NCBI RefSeq assembly: GCF_027925305.1
Contig: NZ_BSDR01000001.1
Span: forward strand, 3,924,501 to 3,988,500
From: Desulforhabdus amnigena
GTDB lineage: Bacteria > Desulfobacterota > Syntrophobacteria > Syntrophobacterales > Syntrophobacteraceae
DNA: 64,000 bases
Direction of reading: 5' to 3'
In this document: one piece after another, positions 3,485 through 47,940 of the stretch
Numbering within the stretch: position 1 is the first letter of the stretch
Layout of the letters: each line of letters begins with the position of its first letter
Notes under the pieces: generated by a model
Database searches by the model: none
Seen by the model: only the letters and a program-made list of their open reading frames with translations
Told to the model about the DNA's origin: nothing
Made by a program: the position numbers and the translations under genes

Positions 3485-3523
3485 AACCGGAAGAGTTGAT
3501 AGACCTCAACTCTTCCGGTTTTT
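3485..3523 (+). terminator. Strong intrinsic terminator between ompH and lpxD
   Basis: A perfect 15-bp stem (AACCGGAAGAGTTGA at 3485-3499 with its complement at 3506-3520), a 6-base loop and a run of five T (3519-3523) form a textbook Rho-independent terminator. It ends only 32 bases before the lpxD ATG. A TTG at 3496 inside the hairpin would extend lpxD but is unlikely to be used. Confidence 0.85.
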
Positions 3524-3555
3524 GGTCGTTGGCTACTGGAACCGGAATTTTGTTC

Positions 3556-4626
3556 ATGACAGAGAGTGACAACAGAAATAATAAGAAGAAGTCATTTTCG
3601 TTGGGGGAGCTGGCCGGGCATTTGAGAGCTGCCGTCAAAGGAAACCCGGAAATCCGCATCGAAGGAGTGGGCTCCCTTGAGGATGCTTGTCCCGGCCAGC
3701 TGAGCTTCATTTCCGATAAAAAGTACCTATCCCTTTTATCCCAAACCAAAGCATCTGCTTTGATCGTGTCCCCAGCCCTTCAAGACATCGATTTTCCCCT
3801 TCTGGTATGCAAGCAGCCCTATCTTGCTCTGGCCAGGGTTGGGCAGCTTTTCGTGGAGCCGCCTTTTCTCCCCCCTGGAATTCATGATAGCGTCTGCCTC
3901 GGAGAAAACATTCAGTTGGGGGAGGATGTTCGCGTCGGTCCCCTAGTGCAAATCGGGAATCATTCTGAGATCGGCCGTGGTACCCGTATTTACGGGGGAG
4001 CCTATATCGGGGCCGGAGTCAGCCTGGGGCAGGATTGTCTCATTTACCCGGGTGTAACCATTTTGGATGGGTGTCGCATCGGAAACCGGGTCACCATACA
4101 CTCGGGGACAGTCATTGGAGCGGACGGATTTGGATTCGCGCAGGATGAAGAGGGGCATCACGTGAAAATTCCCCAGGTGGGGATCGTTCAGATCGATGAT
4201 GATGTGGAAATTGGTGCCAACTGCACCATCGACCGGGCCACTTTCGGGCGGACATGGGTGCAGCGGGGAACGAAAATAGACAATCTGGTCATGCTGGCAC
4301 ACAATGTCGTGGTGGGAGAGCATTCCATCATCGTGTCCCAGGTTGGAATCTCCGGAAGCACTCGCCTCGGAAAACATGTGATTTTGGCAGGCCAGGTGGG
4401 AGTCGTCGGGCACATAGAAATCGGCGATGGAGTTCGCATTGGAGCCAAGGCGGGAGTGAGCCGTTCGATCAAGGCCGGCCAGGATGTGGCGGGAATTCCT
4501 GCTCTGCCCCACAGGGAATGGCTTAGGGTCATGGGAAATTTGAGGCGCCTTCCACAATACAAGGATGAACTCATGGACCTCAAGAAGAAGATCGCTGAAC
4601 TCGAAGCATCTTTGCACAGGGAATGA
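3556..4626 (+). CDS. lpxD: UDP-3-O-acylglucosamine N-acyltransferase LpxD
   Basis: LpxD catalyses the third step of lipid A synthesis, N-acylation of UDP-3-O-acylglucosamine from acyl-ACP in the cytosol. The 356-residue product has the N-terminal uridine-binding region followed by a long left-handed beta-helix of I/V-G hexapeptide repeats (roughly residues 95-300). The catalytic His region is seen as [10 protein letters not shown]. The C-terminus is a charged helix. E. coli LpxD is 341 residues. The ATG at 3556 was chosen because it places the start after the terminator, with GGAA eight bases upstream. It heads a tightly packed operon through waaA. Confidence 0.95.
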
Positions 4627-43883: not shown

Positions 43884-45335
43884 TTATTTTCTTTCGTCGG
43901 CAGACCTTTCTTCAATCTGGTAATTGACTGTCACTTTGTCTGTCGACCCCGATGTCAGCTTGAGAGAAGGGGGAGTCAGTACAAGAGAGGTGGAAAGGGA
44001 ACCCGATTTGCTCAAGTTGTCCAACTTCACGGGAGCTGTGTAGAGCGTATTGACCTTTTCCAGGATCTTGCTGCCTCCAATGACTTTGACCACTTCGGGA
44101 ATGACCTTTGCTTTGATCAGGAGGAGGTTTTCAGGCAGGCGCCCCACCCAGTCCACTTGAATAGGCAATTCCTTGGTGATGGGGACGTCCAGGGTCACCT
44201 CAATGGTGGGCGGATAGACTTTGTTCAGGAAGACGCCCGGTGGAAGGACGATATTGTCCTGTGTGATGGGGAAGACATTGCGTCCTTCCGTAGCCTTACT
44301 GAGGTCCACACGCACCTGCACCTGCCCCGTCCGCAGGGACTTGATCAATGCACTGGAGCCGTAGAGTTGCAGCCGGGCTTCGTCCATGGATGTTTCGAGA
44401 ATTTCGAAATTGGGAGGACGATTGACGTACTCCACGGGAACGTTGAGGGCGATGATGGTGTCGTCGCTCCGCGTGAATCCGAACCAGATGCCGGTCATGA
44501 CAAGGAGGGAGAGTACCCCCGCCAGGGTGAGTTTCAGGCGTTCGCGTTTTTGTTGATCGACGGATACTCCATCCGAAAGGTTGAGATGCTTGCGCAGAAG
44601 TTGTGTCAATTCTTCCGGTTGAGCAATGGGCTTGATCCAGTTGTCCTTGGCGACGGTCACACGACCACGTTCTTCAGATACCACAACCACGAGAGCATCG
44701 GTACGCTCCGCCAAACCTGCAGCAGCTCGATGTCGCGTTCCATAAAAGGTGGGTAGGTCCTGGCGCTGGGAAAGGGGGAGGAGTACCCCCACTTCCGCGA
44801 CATGATTGCCGCGAATGATGACGGCTCCATCATGAACGGGGTTCTTGGGCCAGAAGATACTCACCAACATTTCCTGGGAAACGATGCCCTCCCAGGGAAT
44901 TCCCCCGTGGATCACTTCCGAAAGATCTTCCTTGCCGGGAAATACGATCAAAGCGCCGATGCGCTTTTTTCCCATTTGGTAGGCGCTTTCTGCAATGACT
45001 TCAACAGATGTGGCTTGTTCTCTGTTGGGAGATCCCCAAAGAAACGTTTTGAGATTCCTCACTTGAAGCGCAGTGCGGATTTCATTTCGAAAAACCACAA
45101 TGATGATAATGGCCGCAGCCGTAGTGATGCCCCTGATGGCCCAGCTGGTCAATATCAATCCGAGGGATGCGGCAACCTCCTGGAGGATCCAGAGGGAAGT
45201 GATGCCAACCAGAACGCGAAAGGCATTGGTTCCCTGAAAAAGGACATATACCCTGTACAAGATGTAGCTGTTGATGATGATGTCTACAAGGTCTTGCCAC
45301 CGGATGGTTGCGAGAAAGGCGAAAAATCGTGTCAT
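43884..45335 (-). CDS. cdaA: Fused diadenylate cyclase CdaA / CdaR (YbbR) regulator
   Basis: This 483-residue membrane protein makes c-di-AMP from two ATP. Residues about 10-85 contain three transmembrane helices. The DAC domain follows, with the catalytic motifs D-G-A at 169-171 and R-H-R at 201-203. A fourth membrane helix (about 270-290) then leads into YbbR-like repeats (about 295-475), the extracytoplasmic domain of CdaR. In Firmicutes CdaA and CdaR are separate adjacent genes; here they form one polypeptide. Translation of a DUF2914 gene ends 16 bases before this start, so the two form an operon. Confidence 0.9.
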   Translation of the reverse strand: MTRFFAFLATIRWQDLVDIIINSYILYRVYVLFQGTNAFRVLVGITSLWILQEVAASLGLILTSWAIRGITTAAAIIIIVVFRNEIRTALQVRNLKTFLWGSPNREQATSVEVIAESAYQMGKKRIGALIVFPGKEDLSEVIHGGIPWEGIVSQEMLVSIFWPKNPVHDGAVIIRGNHVAEVGVLLPLSQRQDLPTFYGTRHRAAAGLAERTDALVVVVSEERGRVTVAKDNWIKPIAQPEELTQLLRKHLNLSDGVSVDQQKRERLKLTLAGVLSLLVMTGIWFGFTRSDDTIIALNVPVEYVNRPPNFEILETSMDEARLQLYGSSALIKSLRTGQVQVRVDLSKATEGRNVFPITQDNIVLPPGVFLNKVYPPTIEVTLDVPITKELPIQVDWVGRLPENLLLIKAKVIPEVVKVIGGSKILEKVNTLYTAPVKLDNLSKSGSLSTSLVLTPPSLKLTSGSTDKVTVNYQIEERSADERK

Positions 45336-45351: not shown

Positions 45352-45810
45352 TCAGTCGGTTATGCTGAAACGAAATACATTGAACACATGGCCATTCTGA
45401 TCACTGACTTCCACGCGCCAGGGACCTTTATCTGTTTCTCTCAACTGTATCACACTGTAGGTGGTCCATCTAGGGGGGTAGAGCCTGAGCCGGGTTTGAG
45501 TGCTGAGTTCATCCCGGTGAAACCATCGATGATAAATCTGGGTGGGTTGCGGGACGGGATCAAACGAGGTGAAACAGCACACCTGACCTGCAGATACGGA
45601 AAATACCACCGCAGGCCTTATGGGGGTGAGATTTTCAACTTTTTCACACATTGTCGCCTGGCTCAGCACCAGTTTTTGAGACGGTTGAGGGGAAGGCGTT
45701 GCCTGATCCTGAGGACTCTGGACGTCTTGACCGGAAACGTGAGGTGAGAAAAGAAGGTTTATACAAGCCAGGAGTATGAAGAGTAAAAAAAACCTGGAAT
45801 GAACAGCCAT
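45352..45810 (-). CDS. Secreted DUF2914-domain protein
   Basis: This 152-residue protein has a signal peptide (hydrophobic 6-24, cleavage near V-S-G-Q), a Pro/Gln/Ser-rich linker and a DUF2914 domain. The domain is recognised from Y-H-R-W-F-H-R-D-E-L, R-W-T-T-Y-S-V and G-P-W-R-V-E-V-S-D-Q-N-G-H-V. The function of DUF2914 is unknown; it is often next to membrane proteins of envelope physiology. It is the first gene of an operon with the diadenylate cyclase. Confidence 0.75.
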   Translation of the reverse strand: MAVHSRFFLLFILLACINLLFSPHVSGQDVQSPQDQATPSPQPSQKLVLSQATMCEKVENLTPIRPAVVFSVSAGQVCCFTSFDPVPQPTQIYHRWFHRDELSTQTRLRLYPPRWTTYSVIQLRETDKGPWRVEVSDQNGHVFNVFRFSITD

Positions 45811-46197: not shown

Positions 46198-46226
46198 TTG
46201 ACTTACATCAGAAGATAGAGTATTCA
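46198..46226 (+). promoter_or_regulatory. Predicted promoter of the alaC leader
   Basis: TTGACT (46198-46203) and TATTCA (46221-46226) are 17 bases apart. The start would be near 46233, giving a 36-base lead to the leader peptide ATG. The -10 is weak (3 of 6). Confidence 0.5.
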
Positions 46227-46268
46227 ATTCAAATACGCAGGTATTCGGCTATTTAAGAGATTGGAGCG

Positions 46269-46349
46269 ATGAGAATGTCACTTTCGTTTATCGCAGCTGC
46301 GGCCGCCGCACGGGAGACAGCCTGGGCGAAGGTCGGAGATGTGACGTAA
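46269..46349 (+). CDS. Alanine-rich leader peptide of the alaC attenuator
   Basis: A 26-residue ORF reads M-R-M-S-L-S-F-I, then six consecutive alanines, then R-E-T-A-W-A-K-V-G-D-V-T. The six Ala codons (GCA GCT GCG GCC GCC GCA, 46293-46310) use all four synonyms, arguing against simple triplet slippage. GGAG at 46263-46266 is correctly spaced for the second ATG (46275), which would give 24 residues. It ends 25 bases before a terminator and lies upstream of alaC, the enzyme for alanine synthesis. Both facts fit a ribosome-stalling leader that measures charged tRNA-Ala. Confidence 0.75.
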   Translation: MRMSLSFIAAAAAARETAWAKVGDVT

Positions 46350-46386
46350 AAATAACGTTGGATTTCCTTTTAGACGCCATGGGCTG
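46318..46386 (+). promoter_or_regulatory. Predicted antiterminator pairing in the alaC leader
   Basis: CAGCCTGGGCG (46318-46328, just after the Ala codons) can pair with CGCCATGGGCTG (46375-46386). This gives nine Watson-Crick and two G-U pairs with one bulged A. The second strand is the left arm of the terminator, so the two structures are mutually exclusive, as attenuation requires. A weak 4-bp protector pairing (46304-46307 with 46325-46328) inside the Ala codons could block the antiterminator when the ribosome does not stall. Confidence 0.6.
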
Positions 46387-46412
46387 CTGAATCGGTTCAT
46401 GGCGTTTTTTTT
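46375..46412 (+). terminator. Attenuator terminator upstream of alaC
   Basis: CGCCATG (46375-46381) and CATGGCG (46398-46404) form a perfect 7-bp stem, extendable inward by five mixed pairs, followed by eight T (46405-46412). It lies between the leader peptide and alaC with no other gene in between. Confidence 0.85.
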
Positions 46413-46415
46413 AAT

Positions 46416-46445
46416 CCCTGAGCCGATTGGCCAGGGTTTTTTTTT
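46416..46445 (+). terminator. Second tandem terminator upstream of alaC
   Basis: CCCTG-A-GCC (46416-46424) pairs with GGC-CAGGG (46429-46436) around a GATT loop, followed by nine T (46437-46445). It is 35 bases before the alaC ATG. Two intrinsic terminators directly before a gene imply a regulated read-through. Confidence 0.75.
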
Positions 46446-46479
46446 GCCGGGACAGTCAATTTCATCACAGGAGAGTATC

Positions 46480-47733
46480 ATGTCGGAAGAGTCCATAATT
46501 CGTTTTGCTCAAAGAATGAATCAATTGCCGCCCTACCTCTTTGGAATGATAAATAAAATGAGGATGACCAAGCGCGCGGCGGGCCACGATGTCATTGACC
46601 TCGGCATGGGGAATCCTACTGATCCTACGCCGGAGGTGGTGACACGAAAGCTCTGTGAAGTGGTTCAGGACCCCAAAAGTCACCGCTATCCCGTGGCGGC
46701 CGGGCTGAAGAACCTCAAAAGAGAAATTGCCTTTTACTATGAACGCGAATATGGCGTGGGACTGGACAGTGAGTCGGAAGTGATCTGCACGATTGGTTCC
46801 AAGGAGGGAATTTCGCATCTCTGTCTGGCTCTGATAGGGCCTGGAGATACGGTGCTCGTTCCTGCACCGGCCTTCCCGGTTCATATTTATGCCGCCATCA
46901 TTGCCGGTGGCAATGTGATCCGTATTCCACTGGCTCCCGAAGAATTATTCCTCTCTCGGATTTCAACAATGTGCGAATCGCTCTACCCGACTCCCAAGGT
47001 TTTGATTTTGAATTATCCTCATAATCCGACTTCCATAGTCGCCAATGAAGACCTGTATCGTGAAGTCGTAAAACTTGCCCGAAAGTACAAATTCATGGTA
47101 ATCCACGATTTCGCTTATTCCAAGGTTACCTTCGACGGCTATGTGGCTCCCAGTTTTCTGGAGGTTCCAGGGGCAAGAGAGGTGGGTGTGGAGTTCGGTT
47201 CTTTCTCCAAGTCCTATAACATGGCGGGTTGGAGGATGGGCTATTGTGTTGGAAACCGGGAAATCATCGAGGGGCTGGCAAAGATCAAGGGCTACTACGA
47301 CTACGGGATTTTTTCCGCGATTCAGATTGCCGGTATCGTTGCCTTGAGAGACTGTGCAGCGGAGGTGGAGCATCAGGCTCAAATTTATCAGCAACGTCGA
47401 GATGTGCTCTGCCAGGGATTGGAGCGTTTGGGTTGGGCCGTAACGAAGCCCAAGGCCGGGATGTTTGTGTGGGCGAAGATTCCAGAGCCTTTTGCGAAAA
47501 TGGGTTCTATGGAATTTGCCCTCAAGTTGATGGATGAAGCCAACGTGGCAGTGGCTCCAGGAATCGGTTTCGGCGAAGAGGGAGAGGGATATCTGCGCCT
47601 GGCTCTGGTAGAAAATGAGCACCGCATTCGTCAGGCTCTGAGGCAAATGGGGAAAGCCTTCCGCAACTGGTCTTCGCAAAGCTCTGCCCCGGCGGGGACT
47701 GTGGAGAATCTGGCAACGGCTGCTGATGTCTGA
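46480..47733 (+). CDS. alaC: Glutamate-pyruvate (alanine) aminotransferase AlaC
   Basis: AlaC is a class I PLP aminotransferase making L-alanine from pyruvate and glutamate. The 417-residue protein follows E. coli AlaC (YfdZ) closely: R-F-x-x-R-M-N-Q-L-P-P-Y-L-F, D-L-G-M-G-N-P-T, I-G-S-K-E-G-I-S-H-L, P-S-F-L-E-V-P-G-A-R and the PLP lysine in F-S-K-S-Y-N-M-A-G-W-R (Lys near 244). AGGAGAG precedes the ATG at 46480. An in-frame start at 46399 lies inside the terminator. Related LL-diaminopimelate or other aminotransferases are less similar. The attenuator upstream points to control by alanine supply. Confidence 0.93.
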   Translation: MSEESIIRFAQRMNQLPPYLFGMINKMRMTKRAAGHDVIDLGMGNPTDPTPEVVTRKLCEVVQDPKSHRYPVAAGLKNLKREIAFYYEREYGVGLDSESEVICTIGSKEGISHLCLALIGPGDTVLVPAPAFPVHIYAAIIAGGNVIRIPLAPEELFLSRISTMCESLYPTPKVLILNYPHNPTSIVANEDLYREVVKLARKYKFMVIHDFAYSKVTFDGYVAPSFLEVPGAREVGVEFGSFSKSYNMAGWRMGYCVGNREIIEGLAKIKGYYDYGIFSAIQIAGIVALRDCAAEVEHQAQIYQQRRDVLCQGLERLGWAVTKPKAGMFVWAKIPEPFAKMGSMEFALKLMDEANVAVAPGIGFGEEGEGYLRLALVENEHRIRQALRQMGKAFRNWSSQSSAPAGTVENLATAADV

Positions 47734-47916: not shown

Positions 47917-47940
47917 AGCGCCGCCATAGAAGGCGGCGCT
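47917..47940. repeat. GC-rich palindrome before the Nudix gene
   Basis: AGCGCCGCC and GGCGGCGCT form a perfect 9-bp stem around ATAGAA with no T-run. This is a REP-like palindrome in the 47734-48020 gap. Confidence 0.55.

Follow-up and report, generated by a model that had tools for sequence, protein, structure and literature searches.

What controls the aminotransferase gene that follows an alanine-rich reading frame and two hairpins in Desulforhabdus amnigena? We analyzed a 64,000-nucleotide stretch of this genome (hereafter the window, whose first letter is position 1); the source genome is a single contig of 4.54 Mb. The first-pass annotation, made from the letters of the window, had described the locus as an attenuator with alanine codons in front of alaC. 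Comparison with related leaders indicates that it is very probably a ribosome-mediated transcription attenuator that reads alanyl-tRNA, in which a pairing of strands 2 and 3 (2:3) would serve as the antiterminator and a pairing of strands 4 and 5 (4:5) would relay the switch to a second terminator.

Layout of the Leader

The features of the leader are collected in Table 1. The promoter-like pair, the six consecutive alanine codons, the terminator with eight T and the second terminator were all read in the sequence where the first-pass annotation had placed them. The promoter-like pair has 8/12 consensus matches, which is under the cut-off of the promoter scanner, and is therefore absent from the scanner's list. 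Pairs scoring at least 9/12 are found upstream of 44/51 related leaders vs. 2/50 regions farther upstream. The leader ORF had been given as 26 codons. This frame exists (46269–46349, 26 aa), but the GGAG lies only 2 nt from its ATG at 46269. The spacing to the ATG at 46275 is 8 nt, which makes 24 codons the likelier length of the translated ORF. Translation is predicted to begin from this Shine-Dalgarno-like motif and start codon; a start codon could be located in 51/52 leaders.

Table 1. Features of the leader and the controlled gene, in window positions.
Feature	Position	Strand	Basis
Promoter-like pair, TTGACT (46198–46203), 17 nt spacer, TATTCA (46221–46226)	46198–46226	+	Sequence
Shine-Dalgarno-like GGAG, 8 nt 5′ of ATG 46275	46263–46266	+	Sequence; start chosen by Shine-Dalgarno pairing
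Leader ORF, 24 codons from ATG 46275 (26 from ATG 46269), MSLSFIAAAAAARETAWAKVGDVT, stop TAA 46347–46349	46275–46349	+	
Strand 1, six successive Ala codons (GCA GCT GCG GCC GCC GCA), proposed stall site	46293–46310	+	Sequence
Strand 2 (CAGCCTGGGCG), antiterminator 5′ arm, within the leader ORF just past the Ala codons	46318–46328	+	
Strand 3 (ACGCCATGGGCTG), partner of strand 2 (antiterminator) or strand 4 (terminator 1)	46374–46386	+	
Strand 4 (CGGTTCATGGCGT), partner of strand 3 (terminator 1) or, once freed, of strand 5	46393–46405	+	
Terminator 1 (T1) hairpin	46374–46405	+	Intrinsic-terminator call and sequence
T1 U-tract, eight T	46405–46412	+	Sequence; terminator call
Strand 5 (CCCTGAGCCG), 5′ arm of terminator 2	46416–46425	+	
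Strand 6 (GGCCAGGG), 3′ arm of terminator 2	46429–46436	+	
Terminator 2 (T2) hairpin	46416–46436	+	
T2 U-tract, nine T	46437–46445	+	Sequence
Controlled gene, AlaC-like class I/II aminotransferase (second, divergent paralogue), ATG 46480	46480–47733	+	

Folding of the RNA in the stalled state pairs 46318–46328 with 46375–46386. The antiterminator noticed earlier is thus found, with 10 bp instead of the 11 bp given for it. Within strand 5, 46419–46425 is complementary to 46393–46399 of strand 4, one G-U pair included. The stretch from 46258 to 46445 has a folding energy of −74.1 kcal/mol vs. a shuffle mean of −56.8 (z = −4.0), and 0/200 shuffles equal it.

The gene nearest upstream of the leader is on the opposite strand. 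The minus-strand neighbours of the leader are a CdaA-like diadenylate cyclase gene and a DUF2914 protein gene (window 43884–45335 and 45352–45810). A GC-rich inverted repeat at 47917–47940, between the aminotransferase and Nudix genes, is terminator-like on the minus strand.

The Controlled Gene

The gene had been called alaC, which holds for the family and not for the canonical gene. Its product has the Pfam domain Aminotran_1_2, and its best NCBIfam match is the alanine transaminase AlaC (NF006033) at 517.9 bits, below the curated cut-off of 647; the next is the LL-diaminopimelate aminotransferase model at 491 bits. The best AlaC match in the genome is another gene (L002), with 643.3 bits on the stretch scored, which is also just below 647. 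Since the genome holds this closer paralogue, we assign the window gene to a second, divergent AlaC-like subfamily and, given the higher score of L002, reject it as the canonical alaC. A further gene of the genome, L003, is DapL-like, with 647 bits to PRK09276, over its cut-off of 507. A 440-aa ORF, homoserine-dehydrogenase-like by eye, comes right after L002. Alanine is the putative product of the window enzyme, judging from its family resemblance and the regulatory codons, and the amino acid that the leader appears to read fits the enzyme class.

Distribution of the Leader

The leader recurs, with matching sequence changes, in many sulfate-reducing relatives of D. amnigena. In Desulforhabdus sp. 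TSK (L009) and in a second genome of the same genus (G010), the gene is 92% identical and the leader peptide is the same. A first comparison took in the closest 18 of 80 loci. An ORF with an alanine run was present at 12 of the first 13, L014 being the exception, and no such leader was seen at the more distant L022–L026. A covariance model of the leader (R1) built from 13 leaders was then used to search 98 loci, i.e., the gene and its orthologues. A full-length, same-sense leader was found at 52 of them, including the 13 that match by construction, and none at 46. Homologous leaders, as looked for on the strength of the first-pass annotation, are thus widespread but not universal, and in family f102 the leader is nearly always absent.

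Strong matches to the model (E < 1e−12) occur in 12/39 genomes of the order. A protein search recovered the orthologue in 11 of these 12; in G021, the remaining one, a partial orthologue follows the match, which is close to a contig end. In a phylum sample of 395 genomes, nine have an orthologue at E ≤ 1e−160, and all nine have a full-length model match. Two further order-wide searches found an orthologue in 53/257 and 31/194 genomes.

Independently of the model, a terminator finder was applied to 97 distinct regions upstream of the gene or an orthologue (orthologue G454 starts at a contig end and has no such region). There were 48 regions with a terminator and an alanine run, 15 with a terminator only, none with an alanine run only and 34 with neither; a terminator is therefore found in 48/48 of the regions with an alanine run. 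A run of at least four alanine codons in a short upstream ORF was found in 48 of these 97 regions vs. 0/20 upstream regions of paralogues. A coincidental alanine run is ruled out by the orthologues and by these paralogue regions. L216 is scored here as having no alanine run because its leader is about 480 nt from the gene, beyond the scanned stretch.

Some leaders appear to be decaying or displaced: L205 has no start codon, L220 and L234 have reduced alanine codons, and at L216 a repeat-rich stretch lies between leader and gene. L192 also has a cobalamin riboswitch (3508–3695) on the same strand, downstream of its aminotransferase gene.

Conservation of the Alanine Codons

A run of four to six alanine codons is present in 49/52 leaders. 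The run is six codons long in 14 leaders, five in 25, four in 10 and shorter in two, and one leader has no start codon. The three leaders with fewer than four are L205, in which the start codon is missing, L220, which reads ATAT, and L234, which reads AASA. We aligned 38 of the 52 leaders, the other 14 being near-copies or poorly aligned or odd-looking. In all 38, columns 8, 9, 11, 12, 14, 15, 17, and 18, which hold the G and C of four GCN codons in a row, are invariant, while the third codon positions (columns 10, 13, and 16) show three or four different bases. The residues past the alanine run are not conserved between clusters.

Pairings and Covariation

In the 38-leader alignment, 91.7% of the cells of the antiterminator and the 4:5 helix are paired, and both sides have changed in 10/13 pairs. 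There are 62 cells with both-side changes vs. a shuffle mean of 16.6, a value reached by 0/500 shuffles. When the two helices are slid by 1–3 columns, only 13–47% of the cells are paired. Six of the pairs belong to the upper antiterminator helix (95.6% of cells paired, both-side changes in four pairs) and seven to the 4:5 helix (88.3%, six pairs); these counts exclude the lower half of 2:3, whose position differs by about three columns between clades. The two terminators have 90.3% of cells paired and both-side changes in 9/21 pairs. Their 66 both-side-change cells compare with a shuffle mean of 20.0 (0/500 shuffles reach 66), while the number of pairs with both-side changes is reached by 21/500 shuffles. 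Further pair types showed no excess over shuffles in the antiterminator plus 4:5 or the T1 plus T2 counts (302/500 and 307/500). Examples of compensatory change from C-G to U-A are seen at columns 30/102 (15 leaders) and 116/147 (16 leaders).

A swap test compared native strands with strands exchanged between clusters, using 21 representatives of clusters at 75% identity, 20000 permutations and non-overlapping strands for 1:2. The native value was reached by 58 permutations for 1:2, by six for 2:3 and by none for 3:4, 4:5, and 5:6. The pairings outside this chain, 2:4, 3:5, 2:5, 4:6, and 2:6, were at chance among the 21 representatives. One other, 3:6, also passes (165/20000), which probably reflects the likeness of strand 6 to strand 4. 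Three poorly aligned representatives (L234, L232, and L172) were retained, and the result is the same when they are dropped or replaced. All of the pairings that the switch uses thus covary, and its parts and their spacing are conserved. Comparison of homologous leaders had been set beforehand as a check on the attenuator reading, which is borne out by the retained Ala-rich ORF and the compensatory changes in pairing.

U-tracts (at least six T in eight) follow both hairpins in 25/52 leaders. In 11, which include the Desulfoluna group, a U-tract follows T1 alone, in 16 it follows T2 alone, and none of the leaders is without one. This series, in which one U-tract or the other is always kept, fits a relay in which either hairpin may terminate. 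Since 4:5 covaries too, we read the leader as a six-strand relay of his-like topology, with two terminators that would be disarmed in turn. The second terminator of the first-pass annotation is present and is probably more than a spare, its 5′ arm pairing with the T1 strand that the antiterminated state sets free.

Geometry, Folding, and a Proposed Mechanism

In most leaders, strand 2 starts 17–24 nt past the first alanine codon, the stop codon lies at 45–63 nt and T1 starts 16–30 nt past the stop codon. In the window, strand 2 starts 25 nt past the start of strand 1. With a codon in its A site, a ribosome extends some 13 nt past that codon. Stalled at the first alanine codon, it would therefore leave strand 2 free.

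Folding was simulated for 49 leaders (L205, L220, and L234 were excluded). With a stalled ribosome and the RNA made through strand 3, 2:3 forms in 45/49. When strand 3 is sequestered and the RNA extends through strand 5, 4:5 forms in 49/49. With the ribosome at the stop codon, T1 forms in 48/49 and T2 in 47/49, and with no ribosome T1 forms in 38/49, as expected if an untranslated leader terminates. At equilibrium, whole leaders with a stalled ribosome keep T1 in 33/49 and have 2:3 in just 13/49; with strand 3 sequestered and strands 4–6 present, T2 prevails in 31/49 and 4:5 in 18/49. In the window leader, 4:5 prevails over T2, yet T1 prevails at equilibrium. Equilibrium folding alone was rejected as proof of a switch, since T1 persists in 33/49 stalled leaders and the switch is seen only when the order of synthesis is taken into account. 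Because most whole leaders favor the terminators at equilibrium, the switch has to be kinetic, i.e., co-transcriptional, and because T2 beats 4:5 in 31/49, the disarming of T2 may be incomplete.

In the cell, stalling, termination and read-through would take the following order. RNA polymerase would transcribe the leader, with its 24-codon ORF and six alanine codons. When alanyl-tRNA is scarce, the ribosome would stall on the alanine codons, covering strand 1 and leaving strand 2 exposed. Once strand 3 is made, strand 2 would pair with it as the antiterminator, which would deny strand 4 its partner in T1. The freed strand 4 would capture strand 5 and so hinder T2, and the polymerase would read into the aminotransferase gene, whose product would make alanine. 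When alanyl-tRNA is ample, the ribosome would proceed to the stop codon, reaching toward strand 2, which would be masked or paired with strand 1. With strand 2 unavailable, hairpins 3:4 and 5:6 would form and transcription would end.

Alternative Explanations

One alternative concerns the relay only and leaves the attenuator itself unaffected. The leader may be real and alanine-responsive while a single hairpin matters in the window, T2 being a fail-safe and 4:5 a by-product of a duplicated palindrome. The arms of T1 and T2 are alike, 3:6 passes the swap test, and the terminators beat 4:5 at equilibrium in 31/49 leaders, all of which would agree with this alternative. However, 4:5 covaries, with both-side changes in 6/7 pairs, and it provides the connection from strand 2 to T2 that is required in the 16/52 leaders lacking a clear T1 U-tract. 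We regard this alternative as possible but rather unlikely. It is far less likely that the alanine codons are a side effect of a GC-rich strand 1 that pairs with strand 2, in a leader that senses general translation or the stalling of a nascent peptide. The 1:2 pairing does covary, more weakly than the others (58/20000), and other uORF attenuators, such as that of whiB7, respond to ribosome-stalling antibiotics according to the available portions of PMC11550727 and PMC10727445. The first two codon positions are nevertheless fixed and the third free over four codons in 38/38 leaders, the residues after the run vary between clusters, unlike those of a stalling peptide, and alanine fits the enzyme class.

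The hairpins might also be ordinary terminators or insulators that do not switch, as tandem terminators are common as fail-safes. We find this very hard to credit: the gene next upstream runs in the opposite direction, most relatives have a promoter-like pair ahead of the leader, and the antiterminator covaries. A leader that binds a protein or a metabolite, as a riboswitch or a T-box, with an accidental ORF, would agree with the unusually stable fold (z −4.0). Conservation resides in the codons and the competing helices, with no conserved non-helical core, and Rfam, its T-box and riboswitch families included, gave no leader match at gathering score in the window or at 17 other leader-bearing loci, the lone hit being the downstream cobalamin riboswitch of L192. 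We give this explanation almost no weight. A T-box, a riboswitch or a known leader family was rejected as a candidate, as Rfam gave only unrelated matches below threshold. An attenuator that reads alanyl-tRNA, with a relay to T2, is the reading we keep.

Related Leaders and Implications

Similar arrangements were seen at other loci. In D. amnigena itself, at about 2044600–2044776 of G000:C1 (L178, about 1390–1530), a short frame with an apparent TTG start, Leu-rich by eye, precedes a 2-isopropylmalate-synthase-like gene. This locus has a GCCATGG...CCATGGC hairpin with a T-rich tail and is likely a leuA attenuator that shares the terminator motif. At L125 and L127 (about 1400–1570), the Trp-codon leaders MTSKQAIIRSWIWWRRVSVV and MLSLPRFIIAWIWWLKSKTV stand in front of tandem CCATGG hairpins, and a tryptophan-synthase-beta-like gene comes next. 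From their sequences, these leaders look like the relay design of the alanine leader with Trp codons instead. At L128, a similar model hit, the ORF scan found no Trp-codon leader ORF. L131 (about 1380–1575) has a YYYYW leader and tandem CCATGG hairpins before a DAHP-synthase-like and then an aroB-like gene, and is a candidate Tyr/Trp attenuator. At L126 (about 1460–1600), the leader MMAGQARIHSIGWWWAGSSSRVCPS, with three Trp, and a CCATGG terminator precede a gene for a putative exported or outer-membrane protein, an unexpected target for a Trp leader.

In the relay, a reading to which we give about even chances, one stalled ribosome would disarm two terminators, and the U-tract would have moved between hairpins across lineages. 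The switch would be alanine-specific here, but other Desulfobacterota have the same tandem CCATGG hairpins behind Trp and Tyr/Trp leaders, so the design may be general to the phylum. If the alanine attenuator is real, alanine joins the amino acids sensed by classical attenuation, and the control of alanine synthesis in these bacteria is explained. A role would also be assigned to the divergent aminotransferase, for which the sequence does not reveal the substrate. The leader series, with a U-tract after the first hairpin, the second or both, would make the evolution of an attenuator from one to two terminators directly testable.

Comparison with Known Attenuators

The first-pass annotation knew of no described alanine attenuator, and our search of open-licence papers agrees, having found no Ala-codon attenuator of an aminotransferase. 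The work of Vitreschak et al. from 2004 is said to be the classical comparative study of proteobacterial attenuators. The amino acids under attenuator control that are named in the accessible parts of PMC1262725 and PMC2965389 are others than alanine.

The nearest precedent is the whiB7 uORF of mycobacteria, through its link to alanine starvation, and the title of a 2024 paper by Poulton et al. reportedly makes this connection. The uORF attenuator of whiB7 is treated in PMC13236596, PMC11550727, PMC10727445, and PMC13393426, and two of these (PMC13236596 and PMC10727445) link it to alanine starvation in mycobacteria, as far as their available text goes. The whiB7/wblC attenuator of actinomycetes shares with the alanine leader the stalling of a ribosome on a uORF that leads to an antiterminator. 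It differs in that its target, according to the same partial texts, is a transcription factor that activates the alanine biosynthesis gene aspC, in its broad response to stalling antibiotics and in its unrelated organism. The ilvB1 attenuator of Mycobacterium tuberculosis shares regulatory codons in a uORF and a mutually exclusive terminator and antiterminator. In the part of PMC13236596 that is accessible, codon changes abolished its response, its codons are those of branched-chain amino acids (LVVI) and one terminator is described.

The proteobacterial trp, leu, thr, ilv, and pheA leaders have the same promoter, short ORF with cognate codons behind a Shine-Dalgarno motif, and competing antiterminator and terminator before a biosynthetic gene. 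Here, by contrast, the codons are for alanine, and a second terminator is coupled through 4:5. In topology, the leader is like the his operon leader of enteric bacteria, which has strands A–F. There, A:B, C:D, and E:F form in the terminated state and B:C and D:E in the antiterminated state, with the regulatory codons in A and E:F as the only terminating hairpin. The alanine leader likewise alternates between 1:2, 3:4, and 5:6 and 2:3 and 4:5, all five of which pass the swap test, and has its run of regulatory codons in strand 1. It differs from the his leader in that U-tracts follow both 3:4 and 5:6 in 25/52 leaders and one alone in 27, and in that alanine codons replace those for histidine. 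The proposed mechanism is that of a classical attenuator, and what is new is the putative specificity for alanine, the coupling of a second terminator via 4:5 and a terminator whose place drifts.
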